Assembly: GCA_016875095.1 (NCBI GenBank)
Contig: VGSG01000003.1
Location: 1 to 64,000, forward strand
Reading direction: 5' to 3'
DNA length: 64,000 nt
Source: Deltaproteobacteria bacterium
GTDB taxonomy: Bacteria; Desulfobacterota; Desulfomonilia; Desulfomonilales; Desulfomonilaceae
Each line of letters opens with the position of its first letter. Position 1 is the stretch's first letter. The translations under genes were made by a program, and so were the position numbers. Positions 20,542-30,948 of this stretch are shown here, piece after piece. The notes under the pieces are model-generated. The model was not told where the DNA came from. It saw nothing but the letters and a program-made list of their open reading frames with translations, and searched no databases.

Positions 20542-20971
20542 GTCTCTTGTGTCCCCGCCTTCACAGGAATAACATGTGACAGGCCAGATCCAATCCAGCG
20601 GGCCGCTCCGATCATGAACCGTCGAGTCGAGAAATTCTGCTCGGCGGTTTTTCGTTGTTGAGAATGCTTTTCCATTCCTTCTACCATACTGCTCCCTGCA
20701 CAATACCTTGGCGCAATGCGGTCAAGAATTGCGTTGAATTCCGGCTGGGCTTGTTCTATCGTCTCATAGATCGTGAATACCCGCGCGCGCTGCGAGCTTC
20801 TCACCATAGCTCTTGGCGCGCTGGCGGCCTCGCAAAACAGCCCATGCCCTTCGATCCCGTGGCGCAAGGCGAAACGGCTCGATGCGGTTCCGATAAGAGA
20901 TGCATTCGGATTTCGGTTGGCGACGTGTGATCCATTTACACATACGGAAAAGAGAACAAAGGAGAACCGCA
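20542..20971. other. Intergenic gap before the TRAP-gcv-selenoprotein cluster
   Basis: 430 bases without a supported gene. Open frames on either strand here have no recognisable domain. I looked for a glycine riboswitch (the conserved GGAGAG and CCGAAGG type core) because of the downstream gcv genes and saw none. AAAGGAGA near 20960 is the ribosome site of the binding-protein gene. The promoter of the cluster must lie here, but no convincing -35/-10 pair stood out. Confidence 0.5.
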
Positions 20972-21985
20972 ATGGCACAAGGTGGTCGAACGAAAGGCAA
21001 GAGCACGCTGGGACGACGGGGGTTTATGAAGGCGACCGCGGCGATGGGAGGCGCTTTTATCCTCGGTAATCCGATGAGCATTTGGGCACAGGCCCAGAAA
21101 AGGATTTCCATAGCCACCGGCGGGATGGGCGGCGTGTACTATCCCATGGGAGGAGGAATAGCCGCGGTGATCAGCAAGTACGTGCCCAACGTGGAGGCGG
21201 CAGCCGAGGTCACGGCCGCGTCCGTGGACAACTGCAAGCTGGTAGCCGCGAAGAAATCCGATCTTGCGATTATCATGGGCGACGTGGGCTACGATGCATG
21301 GGCGGGAACCGGCAAATTCAAGGAAAAGTTGCCGATCGTGAACTTGGCCGTCCTGTATCCCAACGTCACGCAACTTGTAGCCAGAGAGGGGAAAGGGATC
21401 AAGCAGGTTTCGGACCTGAAGGGCAAGACCATCTCCACCGGCGCTCCCGGAAGCGGAGTAGAGATCATCGCGTTGAGAATCCTCGAGGCCAACGGCATCG
21501 ATCCCGACAAGGATATAAAGAGGGACCGGTTGGGCGCCTCCGAATCCGCCGGCGCGGTGAAAGATGGGAAGATGGACGCTTATTTCTGGTGCGGTGGAGT
21601 GCCCACGGCTTCCATACTGGATCTGGCAGCTTCTCCAGGGATGAAAATCTCCCTTATCTCTGATGCGGACGCGGTTCCAAAGATGACGGCCAAGTACGGC
21701 CCTGTTTATTACAAGATCACGATTCCCAAGGGCACGTACCCGGGGGTTGAGCAGGACGTGGCGGTGAGCGCGGTGGCGAACCTCCTGATTGCCCATGAAG
21801 CCATGGACGACAAGTTGGTTTACGACATACTTGCCGCGATCTTCGATCACAAACCGGAACTGGTGGCCATACACAAGCAGGCGGAGAGCATAGACCTCAA
21901 ATCCGCTGTTGTGGGGTCGCCCGTTCCTTTCCATAAAGGCGCGATAAAATACTTTAAAGACAAAGGCCTGGACATTAAGACGTGA
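20972..21985 (+). CDS. TAXI family TRAP transporter solute-binding protein
   Basis: 337 residues from the ATG at 20972 with AAAGGAGA upstream; a start at 20900 is rejected because it would bury the signal. The N-terminus has a Tat-type motif, GRRGFMKATAAMGG, followed by a hydrophobic stretch and a probable cleavage after IWAQA, so export in folded form is likely. The mature protein starts KRISIATGGMGGVYYPMGGG, typical of TAXI proteins. It delivers an organic acid or amino acid to the membrane permease. The next gene (DUF1850) overlaps it by four bases, and the permease follows, giving a complete TAXI transporter. Confidence 0.92.
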   Translation: MAQGGRTKGKSTLGRRGFMKATAAMGGAFILGNPMSIWAQAQKRISIATGGMGGVYYPMGGGIAAVISKYVPNVEAAAEVTAASVDNCKLVAAKKSDLAIIMGDVGYDAWAGTGKFKEKLPIVNLAVLYPNVTQLVAREGKGIKQVSDLKGKTISTGAPGSGVEIIALRILEANGIDPDKDIKRDRLGASESAGAVKDGKMDAYFWCGGVPTASILDLAASPGMKISLISDADAVPKMTAKYGPVYYKITIPKGTYPGVEQDVAVSAVANLLIAHEAMDDKLVYDILAAIFDHKPELVAIHKQAESIDLKSAVVGSPVPFHKGAIKYFKDKGLDIKT

Positions 21986-22461
21986 TACAGAGTTCGGGAC
22001 GCGGCGCCAAAGCGCTGCTTCTGTTGCTCGTGATTCTTGCAGCAGCCCTTCTTACAGTGGGGCTCTGCAAGAATCTGCTTTTCGTGCAGATCGACAACCC
22101 GAAAGCGCTGGCGCGGGTCTCTGAAGGAGACGAACTCGTCCACACCTACACACACTCAATGTATCACGCGCTCGTGAGCGAAAGATTCAGGATAGAACGG
22201 GGACATTTCAGGCTCCTTCATGTGAAAACAGATAGTTACGCTGCTCTGGAATACTTAGGCTTGGAGAGAAAAGAAGAGCCTAACGCGCACGGCGCATTCA
22301 CTGAGTTCTCGATCCCTGCCGCAAGCATGGGCAGTCACATGCTGCGGCTGAACGATCGTGACATCTCACTCGGAACGGATCAGGACCGGGACGGGCGCAT
22401 CCGTGTGAAACTGGTGGAAGCGCCCCTGTTGGTGTGCCTCGCATCCTTCTTCTGGAGATGA
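21982..22461 (+). CDS. DUF1850 domain protein of the TAXI transporter
   Basis: 159 residues, GTG start overlapping the preceding stop (GTGA), so translationally coupled. One N-terminal membrane anchor (about 10-30) precedes a beta-rich domain: SEGDELVHTYTHSMYHALVS, then ERGHFRLLHVKTDSYAALEYLG. This is the DUF1850 family, commonly encoded between TAXI binding proteins and TRAP permeases; the role is not established. Three bases separate it from the permease gene. Confidence 0.8.
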   Translation: MIQSSGRGAKALLLLLVILAAALLTVGLCKNLLFVQIDNPKALARVSEGDELVHTYTHSMYHALVSERFRIERGHFRLLHVKTDSYAALEYLGLERKEEPNAHGAFTEFSIPAASMGSHMLRLNDRDISLGTDQDRDGRIRVKLVEAPLLVCLASFFWR

Positions 22462-22464
22462 CGT

Positions 22465-24417
22465 ATGGAAGACCGGAAGACCGAATGGGTCGCCGAAGAG
22501 CAGCTCAAGAAGGTCGAAGAAGTCATTGAAAAGGAAGAGGGCGTAACCCGAAAGCCCAATCCGTACTGGGCGACGGTCATTACGATCTTAGCGGTAGCCA
22601 CCTCCGTCTTTGCCATCTATTGCGCGGTCGGCACGCTCACCACCCAGGTCCTGCGCGGAGTGCACGTAGCGCTCGTGCTCACCTTGGTCTTCCTTCATTA
22701 CCCGGCGACTAAGAGATTCAAGTATTCCGTCAACGTCGCGGACCTGATTCTGATCGTCCTCGGTCTTACGGCCATCGGTTATATGCTCGTCGATTTTGAG
22801 GAGTTCATCTACCGAGCAGTCACTCCGGACATATGGGACGATGTGTTCGGTGTGATTCTGATTCTTCTGATTCTTGAAGCCACCCGCAGAACTTCCGGCT
22901 GGATCATGCCCTCTACGGTTTTGGTCTTTCTGGCTTACGCCTACGTGGGACCGTGGCTCCCTTCCCCTTGGACCCATCGCGGCTATGATCTGGAGCGGAT
23001 TGTCGGGCACATGTACATGACGCTGGAGGGCATTTTCGGCGTTCCCATCGACGTTTCCTCCACCTTTATCATTATGTTCTGCATCTTCGGATCGTTCCTT
23101 CGAGTCTCCGGGGCAGGCAGGTTCTATGTAGACTTCGCGTTCACCGCGATGGGCAGGAAAGCCACCGGCGCAGGTCGCACCGTGGTGATGGCCTCTTTCT
23201 TTCTGGCGGGCGGCTCCGGCAGCGGTGTTGCCGACACGGTTACGGTCGGGTCCGTCGCGTACCCCATGCTCCAGAAAGCAGGTTACGACAAGGAAAATGC
23301 CGGTGGGTTACTATCGGCCGGAGGGCTCGGCGCTGTGCTCACGCCACCGGTTATGGGCGCGGCGGCCTTTCTGATCGCGGAATTCTTGAGGATCACCTAC
23401 CTGGACGTCATCAAGATGGCAGCCATCCCTGCATGCCTCTATTACTGGTCGCTTTTGCTCATGGTGGAATTCAACGCCAAGAAGTTCGGGATCAAATTGG
23501 TGGAGGTGGAAAAATCTTACAGTCTGTGGACGCTCACGCGGATGTACGGATACCACTTCTTTCCGGTTTTAGCGCTGGTGATAGGGTTGGTTTCCGGATT
23601 CACGCCCGCGATGGCTGTGGTCTACGCGCTCTTAACCTGTTTCTTGGCGTGTTTTATCCGTAGAGAGACGTGGTTCACCCCGAGGAGGCTCATTGAGGCT
23701 CTCAAAGGTGGAGCCATGAATGTGCTCAATGTTGCGGCGGTGTGCGCGTGCGCAGGGATTATCGTGGGCGTGGTGAGCCTCACAGGATTGGGGTTGAAGC
23801 TTTCTACGATTATCATCACTTACGCCGGCGGAAGCCTTTTCCTCACCGCGGTGTACACCGCGATCCTGCTGTGGATAATCGGTCTCGCAGTTCCTATCAC
23901 CGCCACCTACATAATTGCGGCCGTCATTGCGGCTCCTGCCCTTACCAAGCTCGGGGCGCCGGATTTTGCCGCCCACATGTTCATCTTTTACTACGCGGTC
24001 TTGTCCGAGGTTTCACCACCCACAGCTCTATCTCCGTTCGCAGCCGCGGCCTTGACCGGCGGCGACCCCTTCAAAACGACCATGATGGCTTGGAAATACA
24101 CCACCGTGGCGTTTGTCGTTCCTTTCATGTTCGTTCTCGATCCCTCGGGCCACGCCTTGCTTCTCAAAGGTGAAAGTCTCTCCGAAACCTTGTGGGTCAT
24201 TGCCACTTCATTCGCGGGCGTTTTTTCATTTGCGTCCGCCGCATCCGGATGGCTCCTGAGGAGATCGACACGAATAGAGCGGGCAATGCTCGCGATCGCC
24301 GGATTATGTCTCGTTCATCCGGCTATATGGACCGATATGATAGGCTTAGCGCTGGTAGGCCTGGCCTTCTTGCTACAAATCATCCTGAAGGAATCCCAGG
24401 CTGTAACAGTGAAATAG
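22465..24417 (+). CDS. TRAP transporter permease, fused small and large subunits (TAXI type)
   Basis: 650 residues. A cytosolic N-terminal helix (1-30, EEQLKKVEEVIEKEEG) is followed by about 4 membrane segments corresponding to DctQ and then a DctM-like module with about 12 segments. Key motifs are SFFLAGGSGSGVADTVTVGS and GGLGAVLTPPVMGAAAFLIAEF in the first half and AVPITATYIIAAVIAAPAL and LSEVSPPTALSPFAAAA in the second, the inverted repeats of the DctM fold. It imports the substrate using an ion gradient. It is 30 bp upstream of gcvT, which suggests glycine, a methylamine or a related amino acid as the substrate (inference). Confidence 0.93.
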   Translation: MEDRKTEWVAEEQLKKVEEVIEKEEGVTRKPNPYWATVITILAVATSVFAIYCAVGTLTTQVLRGVHVALVLTLVFLHYPATKRFKYSVNVADLILIVLGLTAIGYMLVDFEEFIYRAVTPDIWDDVFGVILILLILEATRRTSGWIMPSTVLVFLAYAYVGPWLPSPWTHRGYDLERIVGHMYMTLEGIFGVPIDVSSTFIIMFCIFGSFLRVSGAGRFYVDFAFTAMGRKATGAGRTVVMASFFLAGGSGSGVADTVTVGSVAYPMLQKAGYDKENAGGLLSAGGLGAVLTPPVMGAAAFLIAEFLRITYLDVIKMAAIPACLYYWSLLLMVEFNAKKFGIKLVEVEKSYSLWTLTRMYGYHFFPVLALVIGLVSGFTPAMAVVYALLTCFLACFIRRETWFTPRRLIEALKGGAMNVLNVAAVCACAGIIVGVVSLTGLGLKLSTIIITYAGGSLFLTAVYTAILLWIIGLAVPITATYIIAAVIAAPALTKLGAPDFAAHMFIFYYAVLSEVSPPTALSPFAAAALTGGDPFKTTMMAWKYTTVAFVVPFMFVLDPSGHALLLKGESLSETLWVIATSFAGVFSFASAASGWLLRRSTRIERAMLAIAGLCLVHPAIWTDMIGLALVGLAFLLQIILKESQAVTVK

Positions 24418-28982: not shown

Positions 28983-29507
28983 ATGAGAGAATTTATGATC
29001 TTATTCCTGGTGGCAAAAGACAGACCGGGAATCGTGGATGACCTCTCGACCTTTTTGTTCAAGCGAAACGCAAACATAGAAGACAGCCGCATGGCGGATC
29101 TGGGCGGGCGTTTCTCCGCTATGGCGCTCTTCTCGTGCGCGCCGGAACATCTGGAAACCATAAGAAAAGATCTGGACAAACTAAGGAAGCGTGGCTTCGA
29201 GGTCTCGCTTCATGAAGCGGACGACCCGGCTTCGATTTCCAAGCGCCCGGAAATCCCGTTGAAGCTGGAAGTAGTGTCAATGGATCACCCTGGAATCGTT
29301 CGGAAGGTAGTGCATATACTCAATGACCACGGAATCAATATTTACGCCCTAAACACACAAGTTCTCAGGGCGCCGCTCTCCGGAGCGCCACTGTTCGATC
29401 TGAGTCTGGAGGCGGGAGTGCCCCCTGAGGTTGCAATCTCCCGGGTCAAAGAAGAGCTCAACCGGCTCGCGGCAAAAGAAAATCTGGATTTGAATTTTCT
29501 TAGATAA
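28983..29507 (+). CDS. Double-ACT domain protein, GcvR-like
   Basis: 174 residues with two ACT domains: EFMILFLVAKDRPGIVDDLS (from residue 3) and LEVVSMDHPGIVRKVVHILN (about 95-115), each with the ligand-binding RPGIV or HPGIV turn. The arrangement matches the GcvR group of glycine cleavage repressors, which lack a DNA-binding domain and act through another factor; small-molecule sensing (probably glycine) is the expected role. It is 61 bp after gcvPB and 13 bp before the selenoprotein gene, so both seem part of the same transcript. Confidence 0.85.
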   Translation: MREFMILFLVAKDRPGIVDDLSTFLFKRNANIEDSRMADLGGRFSAMALFSCAPEHLETIRKDLDKLRKRGFEVSLHEADDPASISKRPEIPLKLEVVSMDHPGIVRKVVHILNDHGINIYALNTQVLRAPLSGAPLFDLSLEAGVPPEVAISRVKEELNRLAAKENLDLNFLR

Positions 29508-29520
29508 GGAGATCACATCT

Positions 29521-30399
29521 ATGAGCGCAGCAGAGAAGATCGTCGATGGGTATCGATTTCTTCCACCCAGTCTGGCGGCCTGGGTGCAGAGCTTCATCCC
29601 GGACGAGGATTTCAGCGGACCGATCCCGTGGACCCCGCTTTCCAAGCCGGTGAAGCAAGCCACCATTGCCTTGGTCACCAGCTCGGGTATTAGCATGAAG
29701 ACCGATCCGCCCTTTGACATGGAAAGGGAGAAAAGAGAGCCGTTGTGGGGTGACCGATCCTTCAGAAGCATTCCGAGAGACGCCACCGAAAAAGACGTCA
29801 ATGTGAATCATCTCCACATCAACACGGGATATGCCCTTCAGGACATCAATGTCATATTGCCGCTCACCAGGATGAAAGAGCTTGAAGCCGATGGCGCCAT
29901 AGGGCGTCTGGCGCCCACTTCTTATTCCTTCTACGGATTTCAATGGAATAACACTGAGTTCCTAACCGAAGCCATCGATCCGATGTGCAAGAACATGAAA
30001 GCGGAAGGGGTGGAAGCGGTGATTCTCACACCGGCCTGACCCTTCTGTTGCCAGTCCGTGGGACTGGCCGCCCGTCGTTTGGAGGAAGCCGGATTGTCTA
30101 CGGTAGCGCTGACCCCCACCCCGGATTGGCATAGAACAGTGGGCATTCCGCGGTCCGCCGCTATAGAATACCCTTTCGGAAGACCTTTGGGTCAAGTGGG
30201 AGACAAAGAAGGCCAACGCAGCGTGCTGCTGGAAACCCTATCCGTGCTGGAGAACGCGAAGCGGCCGGGAGAAATCCGACACCTCTCTTTTGCCTGGCCT
30301 GAAGAACCCAAAGAGACCAAATGGCAGCCACCTGAAATGAGTCCTCTTATCAAAGTGTATTTGGATGAAATCAAAGCCGCGCGAAAGGCGAAGGGATAA
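29521..30399 (+). CDS. Selenoprotein of the glycine/sarcosine/betaine/proline reductase subunit B family (UGA = Sec173)
   Basis: The open frame of 172 codons from the ATG at 29521 (AAGGAGA upstream) meets TGA at 30037-30039 and continues in the same frame to a TAA at 30397-30399, giving 292 residues if the TGA is read as selenocysteine. Around it the sequence is VILTPA-U-PFCCQSVGLAARR, matching the Sec-x-x-Cys redox motif context of GrdB/PrdB-type proteins, with Cys176 and Cys177 after Sec173. Codon use and composition do not change across the TGA, and the downstream part (VGIPRSAAIEYPFGRPLGQ) is needed for the family fold. A hairpin at 30050-30068 fits a bacterial SECIS. No GrdA, GrdC, GrdD or selA/selB genes lie nearby. 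The natural substrate is unknown; glycine or a derivative is suggested by the adjacent gcv genes. Confidence 0.85.
30050..30068 (+). promoter_or_regulatory. Bacterial SECIS-like hairpin
   Basis: GCCAGTCC-GTG-GGACTGGC is a perfect 8-bp stem with a 3-nt loop beginning with G, inside the coding sequence. The loop starts 18 nt after the UGA (30037-30039), within the distance range known for bacterial SECIS elements, in which a G among the first loop bases contacts SelB. It is the feature that supports recoding rather than termination. Confidence 0.7.
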
Positions 30400-30570
30400 C
30401 TGGGTGCGCCCGGGAGTGACCAACGATAGCTCGACTCCATTCACCATGCCTCAGGGAACGAAGAAATCGCCTGTCCAAGAAGAGCTAAAGCCGCTCTTGC
30501 GTTATCGCGCGCGCATGGCATGGTGACGCTCTGTCCGGCGGAAATGAGGAATCACAAATACAGGATTATC

Positions 30571-30795
30571 ATGGCCAGGAAGAAAGACTGGACGAAAACC
30601 ATGCACGGCTCCCAGCTCCTTGGGCCGGGAGACATCATTCGGGTCATGGACCGGGGAGCGCCGATTCAATGTCGGGTGCTGTCGTGCCTGGCCTCCGAAG
30701 ACGGAAGTTGCTTTGCCCGAATCGAAATACTCGAAGGGGACCGAAAGGGAGAACGAATCAGCGCGAAACTCGCAGTCAATCCTGACCGAGCGTGA
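30571..30795 (+). CDS. Small basic hypothetical protein, 74 aa
   Basis: Begins MARKKDWTKTMHG and is mainly beta-rich (GDIIRVMDRGAPIQCRVLSC and ARIEILEGDRKGERISAK), perhaps a small barrel domain of the kind that binds nucleic acid or regulatory ligands. AGGA lies six bases ahead of the ATG; an upstream in-frame start at 30520 is possible. I do not recognise the family. It follows the selenoprotein gene by 171 bp and may or may not belong to that transcript. Confidence 0.55.
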   Translation: MARKKDWTKTMHGSQLLGPGDIIRVMDRGAPIQCRVLSCLASEDGSCFARIEILEGDRKGERISAKLAVNPDRA

Positions 30796-30899
30796 AAGAT
30801 AGCTTAAGATAGGGGCTCCTATAGGAGCGCACTGAATTTGGTTCTCACTCGAAAAATCCAGGGACGTTGGCGAGTTGAAAACCTGTGGGATTCACCGCA

Positions 30900-30948
30900 G
30901 GGGCGTGATTCATCGCGCCCTCTTTTCGGGCGCGATGAATCACGCCCC
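30900..30948. repeat. Perfect inverted repeat, 21-bp arms
   Basis: The arm at 30900-30920 (starting GGGGCGTGATTCATC) is exactly complementary to the one at 30928-30948, with a 7-nt TCTTTTC spacer. It lies 80 bp past the 3' end of hrcA, between convergent genes, so it may act as a transcript end or be a dispersed palindromic element. A shorter 14-bp palindrome (GCTCCTATAGGAGC) lies at 30817-30830. The rest of the 30796-31028 gap shows nothing else. Confidence 0.65.

Follow-up and report, generated by a model that had tools for sequence, protein, structure and literature searches.

A putative solo selenoprotein of the GrdB/PrdB superfamily encoded beside glycine cleavage genes in a deltaproteobacterium

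RESULTS

The Locus and Its In-Frame UGA

The window analyzed here is a stretch of 64,000 nucleotides from the genome of a deltaproteobacterium of the Desulfomonilaceae (contig VGSG01000003.1). On its forward strand, a reading frame runs from the ATG at 29521 to the TAA at 30397–30399, and its sole in-frame stop before that point is the TGA at 30037–30039. A further 119 sense codons follow this TGA, giving a total product of 292 residues with the TGA at position 173, in agreement with the coordinates at which the original prediction had the frame stop and then continue. An open run of 119 codons is expected by chance in about 1% of cases at the local G+C content and, therefore, is not decisive on its own. 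The gene is the last of a same-strand run comprising a TAXI-type TRAP transporter, gcvT, gcvH, gcvPA, gcvPB and an ACT-domain gene, and it is probably co-transcribed with the latter. The features of the locus are as follows:

20900–24417, + strand: TAXI-type TRAP transporter (NMT1_3 binding protein, small protein and DctM permease), upstream of gcvT; PF16868, PF06808
24448–28921, + strand: gcvT, gcvH, gcvPA and gcvPB, glycine cleavage, closely spaced; PF01571, PF01597, PF02347, PF21478
28983–29507, + strand: ACT-domain protein gene, directly upstream of the selenoprotein gene with a 13 bp gap; PF13740/PF01842, spacing and strand
29506–29511, + strand: Shine-Dalgarno-like AAGGAG, 9 nt upstream of the ATG at 29521; from sequence
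29521–30399, + strand: coding sequence of the 292-aa PrdB-like selenoprotein, predicted Sec at residue 173; single frame with the TGA read through, orthologues with the same in-frame TGA, PF07355 and TIGR04483 matches
29809–29811, + strand: His97 codon; invariant in solo, PrdB, GrdB and Cys homologues
29842–29844, + strand: Asp108 codon; invariant in the same four groups
30037–30039, + strand: TGA, predicted selenocysteine 173 codon; conserved at this column of the family, selA, selB, selC and selD in the genome
30046–30048, + strand: Cys176 codon, partner of Sec173 in UxxC; Cys in 42/45 solo rows, all PrdB rows and both Cys homologues
30050–30068, + strand: SECIS hairpin, 8-bp perfect stem, loop GUG at 30058–30060; pairing retained in the family well beyond the level of synonymous-codon shuffles and of slid registers

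Conservation of the UGA and of the Sequence Downstream

Among the 88 distinct members of the family that were read, 87 carry TGA at the exact Sec column. The one exception (L078, G385:C12:67357-68037) has GGA (Gly), in a genome with selA, and since its hairpin is intact the GGA is most simply a recent change or an error. Identity to the orthologue of Desulfomonile sp. M47 is 72% before the UGA and 76% after it, and the corresponding Ka/Ks values, computed from nearly saturated synonymous sites, are ~0.10 and ~0.08; purifying selection thus acts on both sides of the codon. Homologues with Cys in place of Sec, which the original prediction had proposed to look for, were found in two Alphaproteobacteria, Haematobacter and Roseomonas (motifs NCPICHQ and NCPVCHQ).

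Matches to the protein were found in 10 of 41 genomes (40 relatives and the host genome) and in 99 of 395 genomes of the phylum, about a quarter of the sampled Desulfobacterota-type genomes, and there are also family members in Chloroflexota and in one gammaproteobacterial assembly. In one genome the C-terminal part of a window-type gene is partially duplicated (L088, G347:C159:8027-8287), about 1.2 kb past the complete gene.

The AlphaFold2 model, produced from 61 family members, has a mean pLDDT of 95 and a pTM of 0.93. It places residue 173 in mid-fold between a strand (166–170) and a helix (174–189), with one predicted fold spanning the UGA, and a stop at residue 172 would therefore cut that fold. 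Searches of the PDB by sequence and profile returned only chance matches to designed proteins, and a Foldseek search of the model against the PDB returned nothing at E≤0.001.

Selenocysteine Machinery of the Host

The host genome (4.7 Mb, estimated to be 100% complete) contains selA, selB (above cut-off), selD and a tRNA-Sec with the anticodon TCA. The full selB is on contig 36; a second selB-like match (L024, G000:C73:47-940) scored 184 bits, below cut-off, and covers model positions 1-273. The selD match (L031, G000:C7:103502-104416) holds one in-frame TGA, based on which the SelD of this organism is itself probably a selenoprotein. Presence of selA was considered as a correlate of the gene and discarded as uninformative, since 38 of 40 genomes are positive. 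UGA still serves as the ordinary stop of gcvT, gcvPA, gcvPB and rimM in the host genome, which argues that its code has not changed.

These data bear on three outcomes that the original prediction had named as contrary to its reading of the UGA as Sec. The genome does have the selenocysteine machinery; homologues do not consistently end at residue 172, since the UGA is held in the same column and the part downstream is conserved; and a separate downstream gene with its own start is not apparent, as the only possible start for a second ORF, the GTG at 30058, lies within the hairpin loop and no Shine-Dalgarno sequence was found upstream of it. Machinery, conservation and the SECIS hairpin described below all agree with Sec at this position.

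The SECIS Hairpin

The hairpin was located exactly where, and with the pairing that, the original prediction had given it: 30050–30057 pairs with 30061–30068, and the distance from the UGA to the loop is 18 nt. The inner seven pairs were all formed in 69 of 86 sequences, which are related and not independent, compared with a mean of 4 and a maximum of 10 in 300 synonymous-codon shuffles, the shuffle being the control for the encoded amino acids. Similarly, the mean folding energy after the UGA was −16.1 kcal/mol for the natural sequences vs. −10.8 kcal/mol for the shuffles, and five control windows within the same genes showed no such difference. Pairing was 92% in register and fell to 15–46% when the partner strand was slid by 1–3 bases. 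Several pairs of the stem varied on both sides across the family, and the first base of the loop was G in all sequences read. The pairing thus goes beyond what coding for the protein would produce, and the hairpin is a SECIS element. An Rfam scan of 29400–30900 gave no match, as expected if the library is without a model for a SECIS of this type.

Relationship to GrdB and PrdB

The protein matches the Pfam GRDB family (PF07355; E=4e-13, 49.8 bits vs. a gathering cut-off of 22), and its best NCBIfam model is PrdB (TIGR04483; E=1e-40), for which its 139.6 bits are well short of the cut-off of 300. Its score against the GrdB equivalog (TIGR01917) was 52.5 bits vs. a cut-off of 602.2, and the GrdB models align to the C-terminal half only. 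A tree was built with GrdB as the outgroup and with plasmid-borne reference PrdB genes, of which three adjoin prdA. In this tree 47 other rows, the window protein among them, form a clade apart from PrdB (support 99/91). A constraint joining the window group with PrdB was rejected (p-AU 0.018). Some branches of the tree are long, and the exact branching order is therefore less sure than the separation of PrdB from the solo proteins.

All groups have in common the Sec/Cys column, His97, Asp108, Pro114, Gly125 and Glu188, and Cys176 is nearly as constant. The Sec-x-x-Cys motif that had been recognized after the UGA is thus present as Sec173-x-x-Cys176, and its Cys is conserved in 42 of 45 solo rows. 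One clade (L083, L087, L101, L105, and L114) keeps Sec and has Asp-His at the site of the UxxC Cys (UPLDHQSVGL), which indicates that the UxxC pair is not essential for every member. Another solo clade (L054, L133–L136, and L053) has a longer C-terminal region, with frames of ~300–440 aa. For a single family member there is also a match to the model of the UGSC selenoproteins (E=3.8e-6), hinting that UGSC and PrdB/GrdB are remotely akin.

Partner Subunits

HMM searches of the host genome for the GrdE/PrdA family (PF09338) and the GrdA family (PF04723) found neither, and so for these two families the earlier observation that the companions of GrdB are not adjacent extends to the whole genome. 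Both families were absent in 14 of 16 genomes carrying a window-type protein, the host included, a count that should be read with the fact that some of the searched genomes are 83–97% complete and that a pyruvoyl partner of strongly diverged sequence could escape an HMM-based search. In the remaining two carriers, G005 and G289, a grd set is present elsewhere in the genome. As positive controls, the same searches gave matches in five further genomes picked for their GrdB hits; PF09338 was found in seven other genomes, in each case as the grd-type version, and the controls are thus grd-bearing rather than PrdA-bearing.

Because both equivalog cut-offs were missed, the protein fell outside the PrdB clade and the partner families were not found, we do not consider it to be GrdB or PrdB proper. 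The label "GrdB/PrdB-like" of the original prediction therefore holds for the type of protein (Pfam GRDB, NCBIfam PrdB) and not for either enzyme in the strict sense. By these sequence comparisons, the window protein belongs to the GrdB/PrdB (PF07355) superfamily as a "solo" member outside true PrdB.

Gene Neighborhoods in the Family

None of the window's neighbors was found beside any of the other orthologues examined. There was also no neighbor family common to most loci, and several of the families seen at six loci are housekeeping genes of one related group. Conserved neighborhood was rejected as a guide to the substrate, as there is no shared partner gene, and so was a role of the family in glycine metabolism, as glycine cleavage genes adjoin in the window only. 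The glycine link that we infer for the host organism may be real there, yet it is no property of the family.

Individual loci have neighbors of other kinds. In the UPLDHQ clade, acyl-CoA dehydrogenase or enoyl-CoA hydratase-like genes adjoin the gene at the loci whose neighbors were read (L155 and L159). In another solo clade a copper-type P-ATPase gene precedes it (L147, L150, and L156), with a c-type cytochrome gene between the two in L150, and at L054 a DUF547-like gene and then TVP38/MerA-like fusion genes lie downstream.

DISCUSSION

We are highly confident that the locus encodes one 292-residue solo selenoprotein with Sec173 directed by the hairpin, most likely a free-standing thiol/selenol reductase. 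SelB and tRNA-Sec would decode the UGA at 30037–30039 as Sec173, directed by the hairpin at 30050–30068, and we infer that Sec is actually inserted. In the chemistry of PrdB and GrdB, a pyruvoyl partner holds the amino acid that Sec attacks. A reaction of that type is unlikely for a protein with no pyruvoyl partner, and the lack of both the partner (PrdA/GrdE) and GrdA points to a free-standing thiol/selenol reductase rather than a subunit of an amino-acid reductase. By analogy, the catalytic cycle may begin with the selenolate of Sec173 attacking or reducing the substrate, after which Cys176 would form a selenenylsulfide to resolve the intermediate, and a donor of the thioredoxin type would re-reduce the enzyme. 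In the members with UPLDHQ, other thiols would have to resolve the intermediate because Cys176 is missing.

A narrower role, in which such a free-standing redox enzyme detoxifies thiol-reactive compounds or metal(loid)s, is possible but rather doubtful. It is suggested by a nearby gene for a MerA-like flavoprotein in two genomes, G005 and G012 (named from reading of the sequence, with no profile match), and by the copper-type P-ATPase before the gene in three genomes of another clade and arsenosugar-type genes opposite it at three Syntrophaceae-like loci (both likewise named from sequence reading). However, no neighbor is common to most loci, many of which have housekeeping or acyl-CoA genes, and there are no detoxification genes of this kind beside the gene in the window.

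We consider it improbable that the protein is a functional subunit of a glycine, proline or betaine reductase whose partner is divergent or unlinked. Membership of the superfamily, the common core residues and the placement of the gene after the glycine cleavage genes of the host are consistent with such a role, but PF09338 and PF04723 were not found in the host genome by searches whose positive controls match, the protein does not fall within the PrdB clade, a grouping that the AU test rejects (p=0.018), and the glycine cleavage linkage recurs at no other locus.

Termination at the UGA, with the locus representing two genes or a decayed gene, merits almost no credence: other genes of the host do end normally at UGA, but this UGA is conserved across the phylum and beyond, the downstream part is under purifying selection, the SECIS is conserved, the second ORF is without a ribosome-binding site, and one fold spans the site. 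Equally negligible is the possibility that an altered code or unspecific read-through places some other amino acid at the UGA, since UGA stops most of the genes checked and both the TCA-anticodon tRNA-Sec and the SECIS are present.

The solo selenoprotein has several known relatives. Selenocysteine-containing PrdB-type proteins with UxxC are already known and are among the commonest selenoproteins of marine metagenomes: 42 Sec-containing UxxC "PrdB" genes were reported from the Sargasso Sea (PMC1088965), and 235 Sec and 110 Cys forms from GOS (PMC2398784). These papers took the family (pfam07355) as proline reductase, and GrdB and PrdB have been listed with the five bacterial selenoproteins of widest distribution (PMC9312934). 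The window protein shares with the marine proteins the domain family, Sec in UxxC, a short PrdB-like length and abundance; the difference is that they are called proline reductase, whereas it falls outside the true PrdB clade and is without PrdA. To the PrdB proteins of Acetoanaerobium, Terrisporobacter and Enterococcus (TIGR04483) it has ~33–35% identity, with Sec-x-x-Cys, His97/Asp108 and a similar length in common, but PrdB adjoins prdA, and the window protein both scores below the PrdB cut-off and branches outside PrdB. With GrdB (TIGR01917) it shares a homologous C-terminal half, Sec in UxxC and the conserved His and Asp; unlike it, GrdB has ~430 aa and needs GrdE and GrdA, neither family of which was found in the host genome. 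Also related are the plasmid-encoded proteins of Haematobacter and Roseomonas annotated as "Glycine/sarcosine/betaine reductase selenoprotein B family protein," which are also solo genes of this family, but have Cys in place of Sec and sit on a long branch. Kivenson et al. (PMC8318568) do not discuss the family, and our literature search found no paper that sets the partnerless members apart or assigns them a function.

For annotation, the immediate consequence is a correction, as standard gene calling terminates this protein at residue 172. For the family, we see even chances that the solo PrdB-like selenoproteins constitute a distinct and widespread family that has no pyruvoyl partner and acts on a substrate other than an amino acid. 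If this is true, most "PrdB" selenoproteins outside the Clostridia are misnamed. With 14 of 16 carriers lacking both GrdE/PrdA and GrdA, a PrdB without a partner poses the testable question of what such an enzyme reduces.
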